From positions 1-39,300 of the forward strand of contig CALMJA010000071.1 of the NCBI GenBank assembly GCA_937864295.1: a stretch of DNA of 39,300 bases, written 5' to 3'. This DNA comes from an uncultured Candidatus Altimarinota bacterium. GTDB taxonomy: Bacteria > Patescibacteriota > Gracilibacteria > BD1-5 > UBA6164. A program made the translations under genes and the position numbers. The notes under the pieces were generated by a model. The model did no database searches. It worked only from the letters and a program-made list of their open reading frames with translations, and was not told where the DNA came from. This document shows positions 32,909 through 39,300 of this stretch, one piece after another. Within the stretch, counting starts at the first letter, position 1; every line of letters begins with the position of its first letter.

Positions 32909-35900
32909 TTATCTTTTTAATCTTAGATTTATTTTTAAATCTTCTATTTCTAAATCTTTATTTATTTCAAAAGTATCTAGACTATCTACAATTGTAGATA
33001 GAGTTTCATTTTGAATATATTCTTTGAAATTTGATATAACTTCATCACAACCTGATATAGAAACTTGTATTCTATCATCTACTTTATAATCTGCTTCTTT
33101 TCTAGATTCTTGAATATGTCTTACAATATCTCTTATATAACCTTCATTTTTTAATTCAGGAGTTATTTCAGAGTCCATTGATATAACCATACCAAATCAA
33201 GCTTCTATTGCATTTGCAGTATTTCCTGATTCATAAACAAGTTCAAAATCTCAAGTTTCAAGAGTAAATTCTCAAACTAAAACACTTCCGTTTTCCAATT
33301 CTGTGAAATTACCAGATTTAGCCATTTCCATAATTGCTTTTACATTGCTACCAAATTTTGGACCAATAGTTCTACCATTTGGTTTACATATTTTTTTAGC
33401 TAAAGTAGTTCATTCTACAACTAAAACATCTTTTACATTTAATTCTTCTTTTATTATTTCTTTATAATAATCACTTATTTCAAATGTAATTGTTATAGAT
33501 TTAAGAGGTTGTCTTACTCTTATTTTTTGATTTGCTCTCCAAGCAAGACCTAGAGAAATTACTTTTTGAACTAAATCCGTGTCTTTATTTAACTCTAAAT
33601 TGATTAATTTTTCATTGTATTTTGGGAAATCTGTTAGATGAACTGATTTATCACTCGTTAAGTTTTTGTAAATATGTTCACTTACAAAAGGCATAAATGG
33701 AGCAATTATTTTACAAGTTTCAACAAGAGTATAATAAAGAGTTTCATAAGCTTCTAGTTTATCTGTATCATTTTCAGTTTTCCAGAATCTTTTTCTACTT
33801 CTTCTTATATACCAATTTGTTAAATTATCCATAAATTTAACTATTGGTTTTGCAGCTTCGTTAAGCTTGTATTCATCAAATCATGTTCAAACTTCTTTTG
33901 CTAATTCATTTAATTCTGAAATTAACCATTTATCAAGATTATTTTTTAGTTTTATATTTTCTATACCTTTTGGTGAGAAATTATCTATATTTGCATAAGT
34001 TGTAAAAAATGAATAAGTATTCCAGAAAGGTAATATTACTTTTTTAACTACTTCTTCAACTCATGATTCCATAAATCTTAAATCTTGCGCTTCAACTACA
34101 GGAGAATTCATAAGATAAAATCTCATTGCATCTGCTCAATATTTATCAAAAATGATTTGTGGATCTGGATAATTTTTCTTTGATTTAGACATTTTTTGCC
34201 CATCTTCAGCCAATACTATACCATTAACTATTACATTTTTCATAGGAGCTACATCATATAGAGCAACTCATAAAACTATAAGAGTATAGAACCAACCTCT
34301 TGTTTGATCAAGACCTTCTGCTATAAAATCTCAAGGAAATTTGAAACTAGAATCTTTTTCAAAAGGGTAGTGTTTGCTAGCATAAGGCATAGCACCACTT
34401 TCAAACCAACAATCAAGAACTTCAGGAATTCTTTTTAAAATTGTTCAAGTTTTAGGATGTTTTATTTTGATATTATCAACAAAATGTTTATGAATATCTA
34501 CTTCTTTGTCTGTGTCAGTATAAAAATATTTACCATTTTTTTCTTGTATTTGTCAGAAATCTTTGTTTAGTTCATACATTTCTGCAATAGAACCAATACA
34601 AACTTCTTCACTTTTATCTTCACTTTGCCAAACAGGAATTGCACTTCACCAATATCTATTTCTAGAAATATTCCAATCTCTTGCTCATTCAAGCCATTTT
34701 CACATTCTTCAAGTTTTTATTTCTCCTGGAACCCAAGATATATTTTTGTTTGCTTCAACCATTTTGTCTCTTATTTTTTCTACTGCTACATACCAAGCTG
34801 AAATTGCTCTATATATAAGCGGAGTATCACATCTCCAGCAATGTGGATATGAGTGGTCATAAGTATTTATCAAAATAGTAGCATTTTTTTCTTTTAATTT
34901 TGTTAATGCTAATTCGTTGTATTCAAATACTGGGATTCAGTTGTCTGTAAGTAGATTTTCAGTATTTCAATTATCTGCTATATGAGCAACAAAACCTAGC
35001 TTTTGTTCTTTACCTATTACATTATCATCTTCTCAATATGCAGGTGCTATATGAACTATACCAGTACCTGATTCAGTTGTTACATGATGACCAGCAACAA
35101 CACTAAAAGAATTTTTATCAAGTGATAAACCAAGAGGCATAGAATTTGCTTCATTTAAAGTCCAAAAATCATCAAAAAGAGGTTCATATTTTATCCCAAC
35201 AAGACAAGCTCATTTATATGTTCTAACTATAGTATAATCTTCTTCGTTCTTGTAATAACTTGAAATTCTATCACTAGCCAATACATAAGTATCTCAAGTT
35301 TTTTTATCTAAAAGTTCTACATAATCTATATCTACTCAAACAGCAAGTCATAAATTAGCTGCTAGAGTCCAAGGAGTAGTTGTCCAAGCTAATATATATT
35401 TATTTGAACTTCAAACTACCTTAAATTTAACAGTTGCAGTTTTATCTTGCTTATCTTTGTATCATTGATTTACTTCAAAATTTGAAAGAGGAGTACTACA
35501 TCTTGGACAATAAGGAACTACTCTATGACCTTCATAAATTAATCCTTTATCATAAAGACTTTTGTAAACCCACCATACAGATTCCATGAAATCACTATCC
35601 ATAGTTTTGTATGAGTTTTCCATATCTACCCATCTTCACATTCTATCTACTGTTTTTTTCCAATCTTCTACAAATCAAAAAACATTGCTTCTACAAGCTT
35701 CGTTAAATTCATAAACTCAGATTCTTTTTTCTATATCGTCTTTTCCAGATATTTCCATCTTTTTTTCTACGATATTTTCAATAGGTAATCCGTGACAATC
35801 CCAACCAAATTTTCTATCAACTCTAAAACCATTCATAGTTTGGTATCTAGGAATCACATCTTTTATTGTACCAGCCAAGATATGACCATAATGTGGAGTT

Positions 35901-36058
35901 CAAGTTGCAAATGGAGGACCATCATAAAAATTAAATTCTGGAGCATCAATTCTATTTTCTATAGATGCTTCAAATATTTTATTTTCTTTCCAAAAAGATA
36001 GGATTTCTTCTTCTAGTTTTGGGAAAGATTGGCGAGGGTTTACTTCTTTAAAGTTCAT
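32909..36058 (-). CDS. ileS: isoleucyl-tRNA synthetase (type 2, eukaryote-like)
   Basis: IleRS charges tRNA-Ile and edits valine. It is 1049 aa, the length of type 2 enzymes. The class I signatures are H56-Y-G-H59 (FATGTPHYGH) and K622-M-S-K-S626. The CP1 editing domain shows [15 protein letters not shown] and [15 protein letters not shown], and [10 protein letters not shown] and [12 protein letters not shown] are typical IleRS motifs. Candidate zinc cysteine pairs occur in YCPRCSTPL and HCWRCDTPL. The PHYGH form and the C-terminal extension ([19 protein letters not shown]) match type 2 rather than the usual bacterial type 1; type 2 enzymes are often less sensitive to mupirocin. The membrane protein gene ends 22 nt upstream. 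No T-box is visible before either gene. Confidence 0.97.
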
Positions 36059-36080: not shown

Positions 36081-36905
36081 TTAATAAGTTACTTCATTAT
36101 AATAATTATTATTATAATTTTCTAATTTAATATTTGATAAGTTATTTTTATAATAATAAGATAATATAGATATTATTATTAATATTATATAAAATAATAT
36201 TTTTAATAATCTATGCCACCATTTATTTTCTAAAATAATATTCTGAATTTTTTCTCAATATATTATGTATAATATTCATTTATGATAAAAGTAGTATAAA
36301 ATGATCCCAAATATTATAGTTATAAGTAAATAATAATTTATTATAAAGAAAACTATTATTAATATAATAAAGATTATTTTTACTATATTGTTCTGATTAT
36401 TATAATAATTTATAATTTTATTATTTATAGGTAAATTTAAATTTATATTAATTTTTTTAGATTCATTCTTTAGTATTTTTCTATTTTTAAAGTTATCAAT
36501 TATTTTTTTTATTAAAAAATAATGAATTAATATTAATCATATTAATAATGTTGAAAAAACTACTATTTTAATAGTATCATTATTAATTATTATATATTTT
36601 TCAATTATTAAAAAAATTGCTGAATATAATATAAATCAAAATATAGGTATATAATATATTGTTCAAATGAAAAATAATATATAAATTATTTTAGATATTT
36701 TTTTTAATATATATGAAATTCATATATAAATCAAAGCAATTAAATATAATATAAATATGAAAGTTAATTCTGAGTAATCATTTTTATTAATTATTTTCGA
36801 TTGTTCTATTTGATTTGATATCTTATATTCTGAAAAACTTGAAAGAGTTCAACTGCTTAAATTATTATTTATTCAAGTTTCATTTGATAATGAAAAATTT
36901 GCCAT
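36081..36905 (-). CDS. polytopic membrane protein of unknown function (274 aa)
   Basis: I do not recognise a family. After about 45 polar residues there are some six predicted hydrophobic segments (for example [47 protein letters not shown] and [16 protein letters not shown]), separated by basic Asn/Lys loops. Composition is extreme: Ile, Asn, Tyr and Lys dominate, and the DNA is among the most AT-rich in the window. A WWHR motif lies before the last segment. It lies 22 nt upstream of ileS on the same strand and is probably co-transcribed. Its upstream flank is the palindrome island. Confidence 0.8.
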
Positions 36906-36925
36906 ATTTAGTTTTATTATTTTAT

Positions 36926-36943
36926 AAAAGCAGGAGAGCTTTT
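36926..36943. terminator. small hairpin upstream of the membrane protein gene
   Basis: AAAAGC and GCTTTT enclose AGGAGA and are followed by TT (plus) or ATAAAA (minus). It could be a weak terminator or a leader hairpin about 20 nt upstream of the membrane protein start. Confidence 0.45.
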
Positions 36944-36952
36944 TTCTTTGTC

Positions 36953-36970
36953 CTTTTGTCACCAAAAGTA
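36953..36970. repeat. palindromic repeat copy 1 (CTTTTGTCACCAAAAGTA)
   Basis: This copy matches the consensus CTTTTGGTCACAAAAGTA, with the G and C around the centre in opposite orientation (GTCACC rather than GGTCAC). A further half copy (CCAAAAGTGC) follows. Confidence 0.8.
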
Positions 36971-37208
36971 CCAAAAGTGCTTAAGAGTTCGAACTTTCGC
37001 ACACAGTCTACTAGGTTTTTTCTCTCGTTTCACGGCGAAATCTCACCCTTAAGAATCCCATTGATACATATCGAAAGATTTTTTGTTTTTTACTATTTTT
37101 AAAAACTTCTAGAAACATCCAGGGGTCTTAGGGGTTGAGATAGTGATTACAAGCCGTAAGTAACATAACTATACTAGCTAGTTCGAAAACCCCTAAAACT
37201 TTTGCTAC

Positions 37209-37226
37209 CTTTTGGTTACAAAAGTA
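37209..37226. repeat. palindromic repeat copy 2 (CTTTTGGTTACAAAAGTA)
   Basis: One mismatch to copies 3 and 4 (T for C in the centre). Confidence 0.85.
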
Positions 37227-37237
37227 GGAAGTGGTTT

Positions 37238-37255
37238 CTTTTGGTCACAAAAGTA
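37238..37255. repeat. palindromic repeat copy 3 (CTTTTGGTCACAAAAGTA)
   Basis: Identical to copy 4 and 29 nt from copy 2. Confidence 0.88.
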
Positions 37256-37295
37256 AGATAAAATGTAAAATCTTTTCAGCTAATTATTTTGTTCT

Positions 37296-37313
37296 CTTTT
37301 GGTCACAAAAGTA
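37296..37313. repeat. palindromic repeat copy 4 (CTTTTGGTCACAAAAGTA)
   Basis: Identical to copy 3 and 58 nt from it, exactly twice the spacing of copies 2 and 3. It lies just downstream of the small-protein gene ending at 37342. Confidence 0.88.
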
Positions 37314-37341
37314 CATATAGTTTTATAAAAATATATATTTT

Positions 37342-37608
37342 CTACTTTGTATTTTCCAATGCTTTACTTATTTTTTCAACAACTTCTCTACATTCAGAAA
37401 TTAATAGTTCTTCATCTGCTATTTGTCTATATATTTTTTTTACTTGTTCAGTTTGAGTAATACTTCAAGTTATTTCATTTAGAGTTATTTGGCTAAGTAA
37501 ATAATGATAATTTACAACTATATCAGCTGCTCTTCACATTTCCATCATAACTCTATTTAAATTTTCTTTACTAGGTTCTTCTCATAAACTTTGTACATAA
37601 TCAATCAT
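37342..37608 (-). CDS. small helical protein of unknown function (88 aa)
   Basis: I do not recognise a family. The protein is all-helical and acidic (MIDYVQSLGEEPSKENLNRV ... ISKALENTK), with no signal peptide or membrane segment and one cysteine near 74 (ISECREVV). It ends in TAG, a minority stop here. It starts 6 nt after the CYTH gene stop, so it is the last gene of a three-gene operon. Confidence 0.72.
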
Positions 37609-37614
37609 ATTTTT

Positions 37615-38184
37615 TTAGTTATTTTTTAAGATTTCATATATTTCTAAATTTTGGTTTCTAGCACAAACAGTTGCTTTTCAAGAAGTTTCAAAATCAAAAG
37701 TTGATTCAAGACCTATTTTTTTTCTAAAATCTTCTATTAAATCATTTACTTCGTTTTCATTTTTATCTTCTGAAATAACTTCTATTTCATATCTTTTTCA
37801 GTATTGGAAACTATCTATATCTATATTTATAGTTTCTCATCACATTTTGTATTCAAATTTTTCTCTACTAGTGTCTATAAATAATACTCATGTAGTATCG
37901 TCTATAGTTATGTTAAATTCTTTTTTCAATATAGTATCTATTTCATCATCTCAAACTATCTCTTCTGATACTACTAAATTTGTTTCATGATTTATAGTTG
38001 TTATTTTTAGCTCATATATACCATTCCTCATTCTTAGGTAATACATAGCCTTAAATAATCTATAATCACTAGTATCTAAATAATAGTCTTTTAAATTTTC
38101 TATTCATATTCTTTTACAATTTTCTACTATTTTTTCATAGTCATCAAGTCTAAAAGTATATTTTTTTTCTATTTCAGTATGCAT
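37615..38184 (-). CDS. CYTH-domain protein (triphosphate tunnel metalloenzyme)
   Basis: This 189-aa protein starts MHTEIEKKYTF, the ExExK signature of the CYTH superfamily. The tunnel strands DYYLDTSDYRLF, YYLRMRNGIYELKI and YGKRYEIEVIS supply the alternating Arg/Lys and Glu residues that bind a triphosphate and a divalent metal. Members are thiamine or inorganic triphosphatases and, more rarely, class IV adenylate cyclases. Length and sequence fit a small triphosphatase, but the substrate cannot be read from the sequence. It is the central gene of an operon with two small helical proteins (gaps of 11 and 6 nt), downstream of the structured-RNA candidate. Confidence 0.87.
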
Positions 38185-38195
38185 TTATATTTTTT

Positions 38196-38429
38196 TTAAT
38201 TTTTAAAATCTGTAATTAATTCTAATGCTGTTTCTTTGTATTCATCATCACCAAATTCTAAAAATAAAGTTGCTTCGTGAAGGATATCATCTATCTTATC
38301 CATATCACTTTCATTTAAACCACATGTATAAAGTGTTTCAACTATGTAATCTATATTATCCATATTTTCTTGAACTAATGCTTCTTCAAGTTTAGATAAA
38401 TAATTTGTGTATAATTCTGCTTCTTTCAT
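38196..38429 (-). CDS. small acidic helical protein of unknown function (77 aa)
   Basis: I do not recognise a family. MKEAELYTNYLSKLEEALVQ is followed by helices rich in Asp and Glu (NESDMDKIDDILHEATLFLEFGDDEYKE). An in-frame ATG further upstream would add a hydrophobic 22-residue stretch, but that part is only the translated T-tract of the terminator, so the ATG at 38429 is preferred. It is the first gene of the CYTH operon and lies directly after the long hairpin ending the structured region. Confidence 0.75.
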   Translation of the reverse strand: MKEAELYTNYLSKLEEALVQENMDNIDYIVETLYTCGLNESDMDKIDDILHEATLFLEFGDDEYKETALELITDFKN

Positions 38430-38470
38430 AATGTAATAGTAAATTATAAAATAAAACTTTAATAAATAAA

Positions 38471-38525
38471 AAAGTATAAAAAATGTGTATTTCAATTTTA
38501 TTGAAATGCATATTTTTTATACTTT
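38471..38525 (-). terminator. 25-bp hairpin ending the structured leader (terminator/attenuator)
   Basis: Arms of 25 nt enclose TTTTA. They match except at two positions, which are G-U wobbles on the plus-strand RNA and A-C mismatches on the minus-strand RNA. On the minus strand the stem is followed by TTTTTTATTTATT. Its 5' arm overlaps the GAAAGT of an alternative helix upstream. Confidence 0.75.
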
Positions 38526-38663
38526 CGGTCCTTCGTTATTGAAGAAAGTTACCACCTAAAGCAATACTTAATTTTATTTTTTTTACGAGAGATTTCACTA
38601 CTCGGGAGATTCTACTAAGTTTTATACTTTTCTTTCTCCAGCATTGTCTGTTGATAGCAGACT
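38521..38663 (-). ncRNA. candidate structured RNA / riboregulator upstream of the CYTH operon
   Basis: Read on the minus strand, this gene-free region folds into a consistent set of helices. They are: a GTCTG/CAGAC hairpin (38646-38662); a closing helix AGCATTG/CAATACT (38640-38646 with 38562-38568, one G-U); inner hairpins GGAGA/TCTCC (38605-38609 with 38635-38639), AAGT/ACTT and CGAG/CTCG; then GGTGGTAAC (38548-38556) and ACTTTC/GAAAGT (38544-38549 with 38521-38526). The last helix shares five bases with the following terminator stem, so the two are mutually exclusive, as in a transcription attenuator. GGTGGTAAC recalls the T-box TGGNACC bulge, but no synthetase gene follows. No known riboswitch class is recognised. 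Confidence 0.5.
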
Positions 38664-38715
38664 CAAACGCTTTTATTTACAAGATAAATTTAATTATTTT
38701 TTTGTTTTTGTAAAG

Positions 38716-39300
38716 TTAATTTGAAAACTCAGTGCAATAATGAGTAGTTATGTATATTTTATAATAATCACTATCTTTAAAACTATTATTATTTTCTTTT
38801 TTTATAGCCATTCAAACTCAAATATATTTTAAATTTTTATGAATTATAGTTCTATAATGTGCATCAAGAGGGTATTTTAGTCATTTTTCAGACATAAACA
38901 TATCAAAAATTTCTTTGCTAGCTTTTAAAGCTTCATCACTACAATCGCTATCAGTTTTTTTGCAATAAAATGAATGATATCATAGATTCTCTGAACTAGT
39001 TACACCATTGCTAACTCTACATTTTACTCATCTTTCTTGAAACCATTTTTCTATTTCAGAGTAATCATAAAAACTACTATTAGAGCTTCTTTTATGATCC
39101 ATAACTCATTTTTCCATATTATTAAATGACCATTCGAAAGCAGTATTATCTAATCTTTCATCATAAGTATAATATGTTTTTAATTTAGCGTTATATCTAG
39201 CATCATTATGCCATGTTAACCAATTATCTTTTATAATAGAAAAGTCTATTTTATTTTCTTTGTAATGATTTTTAGAAAAAGTGGAAAATTTAATTTGTTT
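38716..39300 (-). CDS. CAP/SCP-domain protein, 3' part
   Basis: The window contains the last 194 codons; the N-terminus lies beyond 39300. The CAP (CRISP/antigen 5/PR-1) pattern is visible: WLTWHNDARYNAKLKTYYTY (helix 1 with the HN..R motif), TAFEWSFN, ENLGYHSFYC, a helix, then YRTIIHKNLKYIGVGMAIKK (the H..N....GVG signature) and YYKIYITTHYC. Four or more cysteines (KCRVSN, FYCKK, SDCSDE, HYCTEF) suggest disulfides, so the protein is probably exported. Bacterial CAP proteins are secreted or wall-associated and of varied function. The structured-RNA candidate begins about 50 nt after its stop. Confidence 0.85.

Follow-up and report, generated by a model that had tools for sequence, protein, structure and literature searches.

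A putative tRNA-Ile-sensing T-box riboswitch with an ultrashort Stem I and a transcription terminator upstream of ileS in Gracilibacteria

The window, that is, the whole stretch of 39,300 nucleotides analyzed here, contains a gene-free structured region just upstream of the genes for a 77-aa protein, a CYTH-domain protein and an 88-aa protein, and raises the question of which signal this leader reads and which gene it serves. A first-pass annotation had noted in this region the element GGTGGTAAC and a 25-bp terminator, and these were confirmed by folding and by homologues. The fold of the leader including the terminator gave z = -4.75, with 0 shuffles as good, and z of only -1.8 without the terminator. 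By blastn, the element was detected at 73-100% identity in most family genomes, with no match among phages. ARAGORN detected neither tRNA nor tmRNA in the window.

The structure itself was real, while its transcription was reassigned to the minus strand. A U-tract follows the terminator (on its 3' side) on this strand only. The interval 38471-38663 given originally covered most of the leader, the real extent of which was about 38675 to 38460; because the leader begins at about 38675, the end at 38663 truncated the base of the first stem. The parts of the leader are as follows.

38687..38714, minus strand: possible promoter TTTACA-16-TAAATT, a consensus match only and not above chance
~38460..38675, minus strand: whole putative T-box leader, from the Stem I base to the terminator U-tract (match of the covariance model R1 and homologues)
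38640..38671, minus strand: ultrashort Stem I, with base AGC/GCU, k-turn-like UUUGA/AAU and a 5-bp stem GUCUG/CAGAC (helices 1 and 2)
38653..38655, minus strand: predicted specifier codon AUC (Ile) within the apical loop CUAUCAA (38657-38651); AUC in 59 of 59 Ile-type copies
38605..38639, minus strand: Stem II (GGAGA/UCUCC) with S-turn, AAGAA at 38634-38630 and AGUAGA at 38616-38611 (helices 3 and 4)
38586..38604, minus strand: Stem IIA/B hairpin CGAG...CUCG (helix 5, 97% paired)
38567..38585, minus strand: A-rich linker ending in the conserved AAAAUUAAG, at the position of the Stem III purine string, without Stem III (alignment)
38555..38562, minus strand: 5' strand of antiterminator helix A1, GCUUUAGG, pairing with 38528-38521 (helices 6 and 7)
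38547..38554, minus strand: T-box bulge UGGUAACU, its UGGU complementary to the ACCA end of tRNA-Ile (sequence; the N of UGGN covaries with the specifier)
38529..38546, minus strand: antiterminator helix A2 (UUCUUC/GAAGGA) and loop (helix 8)
38521..38528, minus strand: 3' strand of antiterminator helix A1, CCGAAAGU, common to the terminator (covariation)
38470..38526, minus strand: intrinsic terminator of 25 bp, followed by the U-rich tract 38469-38460 (fold energy)

The model R1 was constructed from 17 copies, using the consistently aligning subset A3; the MAFFT alignments (alignments A1 and A2) misplaced Stem I and helix A2. R1 matched the window copy at 38673-38521 with 152 bits (E 2e-33), a match by construction because this copy is one of the training sequences. 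Matches were detected in 67 of the 77 genomes of the order, with two copies per genome at most, and, under strict filters, in 100/353 genomes of the class and 61/380 sampled Patescibacteria genomes. Among 31 named ileS loci, R1 was found in 17 and matched none of the Treponema, Spirochaetaceae or Bdellovibrio records.

The first-pass annotation had made the structure depend on covariation in relatives, and the structure survived this check. The alignment of 100 copies (A4) had 96.0% of its pair cells paired, and 30 of the 35 pairs exhibited compensatory double changes. The number of double-change cells was 727, compared with 197 ± 15 in shuffles and no more than 132 with the partners slid by one to three columns; A4 was fitted to the model and is hence biased towards it, but the contrast with the controls was large all the same. 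The two helices of Stem I were 98.7% and 98.9% paired, with stem pairs variable on both sides. The k-turn-like internal loop, UUUGA opposite AAU in the window copy, contained GA in many relatives, and the apical loop has seven nucleotides as drawn, although a non-standard pair of its closing bases might form. The Stem II strands AAGAA and AGUAGA/AUUAGA were conserved and correspond to the loop-E or S-turn strand pair of T-box Stem II. The hairpin at the IIA/B position also covaried. A search of the alignment detected no covarying pseudoknot partner for its loop, as the region is too A-rich and too conserved for such a search. One natural copy (L028:1434-1556) lacked the IIA/B hairpin and kept all other parts, offering a useful natural deletion. 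Stem III was absent from most copies, including that in the window, and the spacing between the purine string and the T box was 9-13 nt in 72 of the 79 copies measured.

In the antiterminator, A1 is formed by GCUUU-A-GG with CC-G-AAAGU, and a U makes the bulge eight bases long. Helices 6-8 were 93-99.5% paired, with double changes in both A1 and A2; all six A2 pairs had changes on both sides. The outermost A2 pair was U-A in 83 copies, C-G in 14, U-G in one and G-U in none. The terminator starts inside the 3' strand of A1. An alternative helix sharing bases with the 5' arm of the terminator had been proposed before; the sharing proved right, with six common bases (GAAAGU, 38526-38521) rather than five. 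The partner named for it was wrong; ACTTTC opens the next helix. On the covariation, the pairing ACTTTC/GAAAGT was rejected for GCTTTAGG/CCGAAAGT, in which GAAAGT pairs with GCTTTAGG upstream of GGTGGTAAC with compensatory changes (helix 6). Folding alone paired Stem I differently, with the T box, and this was likewise rejected, being overruled by the alignment.

The terminator was calculated at -18.8 kcal/mol, whereas the antiterminator alone gave -7.1 to -7.5 kcal/mol; with the terminator so much the stronger, the default state would be off, as expected for a T-box. Among 98 homologous copies, a terminator sharing the A1 strand reached at least 8 bp in 95 and at least 11 bp in 85. The corresponding numbers were 68/294 and 7/294 at other downstream positions, and 34/98 and 6/98 in shuffled sequence.

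These elements point to a T-box, a class that the first-pass annotation had named as an analogy without recognizing the identity: the specifier codon, the UGGN bulge and the antiterminator were all present. Every defining feature of the T-box family that is open to testing was found in the leader, and we regard it as almost certain, judging from the sequences, that the leader controls transcription as a tRNA-Ile-sensing T-box riboswitch whose Stem I is ultrashort. The conserved and covarying secondary structure, the agreement of specifier, bulge and gene, the terminator and the complementary tRNA can all be read directly from the sequences compared.

The agreement between specifier and bulge extended over the copies. 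Those with AUC carried UGGU in 58 of the 58 with a readable bulge (59 Ile-type copies), fitting A73 of tRNA-Ile, and those with AAC, or once GAC, carried UGGC in 40 of 41, fitting G73 of tRNA-Asn/Asp. In total, 98 of 99 copies were concordant (Fisher p 5e-27, not corrected for relatedness), and these counts are not independent, as a single ancestor may underlie each kind; this evidence draws its strength from the agreement with the gene and the tRNA. The window genome has a tRNA-Ile(GAU) ending in ACCA and a tRNA-Asp ending in GCCA, and the tRNA-Asn of a relative ends in GCCA. There were two exceptions with UGGU against G73, L062 with AAC and G307 with GAC, each of which would leave a U-G wobble; tRNAs with A73 were ruled out as the explanation, since G73 was found in both genomes.

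The downstream genes followed the same division. The AUC copies preceded ileS (directly or after small genes) or ilvA where the fetched flank was long enough; ileS was not seen for several AUC copies with a flank of only 1.5 kb, and a few longer flanks had neither gene. The Ile-type leaders located upstream of ilvA (threonine ammonia-lyase) instead of ileS were L054, L075, L088 and L023. The AAC/GAC copies preceded aspS, except for two at contig ends and one without aspS among the first genes listed. A second leader, located in the same genome but outside the window (L090:121-271; G000:C70:13732-13882, plus strand), had AAC and UGGC and was located 60 nt before aspS. An Asn codon before aspS can be understood because asnS exceeded the curated cut-off in none of the 48 genomes of the family while gatB was present, over the cut-off in 46 and matched in 47 of the 48; stronger AsnRS-like matches, still below the cut-off, occurred in three genomes. 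A non-discriminating AspRS together with GatCAB presumably supplies Asn-tRNA, and a leader reading tRNA-Asn would be a sensible control of such an AspRS.

The gene series downstream of the leader in the window is as follows.

38196..38429, minus strand: 77-aa acidic protein, first gene after the leader (ORF; no Pfam family)
37615..38184, minus strand: CYTH-domain protein (Pfam PF01928, E 6e-11)
37342..37608, minus strand: 88-aa protein (ORF)
36081..36905, minus strand: 274-aa protein (ORF; no family)
32909..36058, minus strand: ileS, isoleucyl-tRNA synthetase, presumed main target (NCBIfam TIGR00392, 961 bits)

The first-pass annotation had placed an attenuator, with antiterminator against terminator, upstream of the CYTH operon. 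The attenuator logic was correct and the leader does lie upstream of this operon, but the gene it regulates is most probably not the CYTH gene itself but ileS, at the end of the series, because of the specifier and of relatives having ileS directly after the 77-aa gene. In all five genus members compared, ileS was found 2-4 kb downstream of the leader on the same strand, in the order leader, 77-aa gene, CYTH gene, in most cases an 88-aa-like gene, variable genes and ileS, with all of these genes on one strand. In the window ileS lies 2.4 kb downstream, with a 436-nt gap (36906-37341) in between. The gap contained short repeated frames (GPKE..., FCNQKVAK), and a similar stretch, FCKTICTFVTKSYQK, was seen in L198; it is possibly an intergenic repeat family. 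No terminator-like site was detected between the leader and ileS, a result of little weight, as the A+T-rich terminator of the leader itself escaped the same scan. Directly upstream of the leader, on the same strand, lies a CAP-domain (PF00188) gene (38719-39300). The window IleRS was 86-90% identical to the IleRS of named Gracilibacteria MAGs, and the window genome uses code 25, in which TGA encodes Gly. Two tRNAs with anticodon UCA (L150:1319-1393 and L162:1498-1576), assigned to SeC by ARAGORN, end in TCCA like tRNA-Gly, and are probably tRNA-Gly reading TGA as glycine.

From the sequences we infer tRNA binding, sensing of aminoacylation, termination and a single operon down to ileS. In the nascent leader, the AUC specifier would pair with the GAU anticodon of tRNA-Ile, with the Stem II S-turn holding the tRNA. 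The ACCA end of uncharged tRNA-Ile would then pair with the UGGU bulge and stabilize the antiterminator A1/A2, allowing the polymerase to read through into the series of 77-aa, CYTH, 88-aa and 274-aa genes and ileS. With the tRNA charged or absent, GAAAGU would enter the 25-bp terminator and transcription would end. It is very likely that the leader acts like a T-box.

A T-box acting on translation by sequestering the ribosome-binding site, as the short-Stem-I T-boxes of Actinobacteria do, would fit the architecture of a short Stem I and a Stem II known from class III ileS T-boxes (PMC10482949). We consider this highly unlikely for the present leader, in view of the terminator with U-tract that overlaps the antiterminator in 95 of 98 copies and of the first long reading frames, which mostly begin past the terminator, some of them far past. 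The strong terminator directly after a compact fold would also suit a small RNA that is stable, acts in trans, ends at its own terminator and has no role in cis, although a short terminated RNA is expected anyway. The specifier and the bulge match the tRNA and co-vary with the identity of the downstream gene, and competition of the terminator with a conserved helix would be pointless for a plain small RNA, leaving that explanation with a very slight probability.

The Rfam scans bear on a different attenuator, such as a leader peptide or a small-molecule riboswitch, resembling a T-box only in the GGUGGUAAC element. No Rfam family was detected in the window at the gathering cut-off or at E up to 10, including RF00230, and the best weak matches (mir-4703, PyrG leader and sroB) were located only around the terminator hairpin. 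The earlier verdict of no known class is thus explained, because the Rfam T-box model is blind to this leader even at E = 10. The gathering cut-off of RF00230 (93 bits), a model threshold and no biological feature, was reached in none of the 353 genomes of the class, and two of 14 control genomes passed it. Against a different attenuator, the complete T-box order of elements was present in the leader, homologues with more canonical discriminators matched RF00230 with E down to 4e-7 (10-locus scan), and other class members reached 83 bits; its probability appears vanishingly small. The T-box reading agrees with the deeper relatives, which gave weak but significant Rfam T-box matches and contained the canonical AGGUGGUACCGCGG. 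Homologues outside the order had ileS downstream almost throughout and more canonical discriminators, with AGGUGGUACCGCGG...CGUCCUUG in several.

Class- and phylum-level homologues of the same architecture preceded ileS, valS, aspS and serS in Patescibacteria, with GUC before valS, GAC before an aspS/asnS-like gene, and UCC with UGGC before serS. Adjoining the valS locus of another Patescibacteria genome, a c-di-GMP-II riboswitch above the Rfam cut-off was also observed (L349:2432-2515). Further T-boxes of the same class of bacteria (L212-L231) were found before glyS, thrS, trpS and argG/argF, all below the RF00230 cut-off. On sequence grounds, the leader is a member of a short, unannotated T-box branch across Candidate Phyla Radiation (CPR) bacteria. 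We consider it fairly probable that these bacteria have a widespread unannotated T-box system, that its short-Stem-I branch works by termination, that at least in this order the discriminator is reduced (8-nt bulge, neither Stem III nor the A2 G-U sensor pair), and that an Asn-reading T-box governs a presumably non-discriminating AspRS where no recognizable AsnRS is found. Within a partial coverage of the literature, no publication was found that connects T-box riboswitches to these phyla, which is weak evidence of novelty.

Such a system would give host-dependent, amino-acid-poor bacteria an explicit response to amino-acid starvation, and an Rfam family could be started from the alignment of 100 copies. 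According to a 2020 review (PMC7583486), T-boxes that act on transcription generally depend on a long Stem I carrying the tRNA-elbow module, so that the tRNA is bound before the polymerase reaches the terminator. With so many natural leaders that combine a short Stem I with a terminator, this rule would become directly testable. The G-U pair at the A2 base has been described as the primary sensor of the 3'-amino acid (PMC7583486), and a discriminator without it raises the question of how charging is sensed.

Among the four T-box classes, I and II are generally transcriptional and III and IV mostly translational (PMC10482949). The leader resembles RF00230/class I of Bacillota, of the Bacillus subtilis tyrS type, in transcription attenuation, in A1/A2 with a UGGN bulge, in the Stem II S-turn and in the aminoacyl-tRNA synthetase genes downstream. 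Unlike class I, it lacks the entire distal part of Stem I with the IDTM, since Stem I ends at the specifier loop, as well as the G-U pair at the A2 base, and in no genome of the class did the present set reach the Rfam cut-off. The glyS, thrS, trpS and argG/argF T-boxes come from the same bacterial class, many with terminator-like tails, and their UGGA or UGGC bulges fit the tRNA ends (UGGA before glyS, fitting UCCA, and UGGC before trpS). These T-boxes, unlike the present set, were found by sub-cut-off RF00230 matches and not by R1, and several have a long or otherwise different Stem I. The T-boxes already known to have a short Stem I mostly regulate translation in Actinobacteria, and class III, represented by Nocardia farcinica ileS, has a short Stem I with an apical specifier and a Stem II (PMC10482949). 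The leader is like class III (N. farcinica and Mycobacterium tuberculosis ileS; PMC10482949, PMC7583486) in its short Stem I without the tRNA-elbow module, the specifier in the apical loop, the k-turn-like base, the accompanying Stem II with S-turn, the UGGN bulge and the ileS target. It differs in having a transcription terminator, whereas class III sequesters the ribosome site, and in an apical loop of 7 nt as drawn here compared with 5-6 nt. The present set, moreover, is mostly without Stem III, also includes Asn, Asp, Val and Ser versions, and occurs in Patescibacteria instead of Actinobacteria. By form the leader would thus belong to class III, but not by the usual mode of control, and because nearly all copies have a terminator, we file it as a class III variant and not as a class III member.
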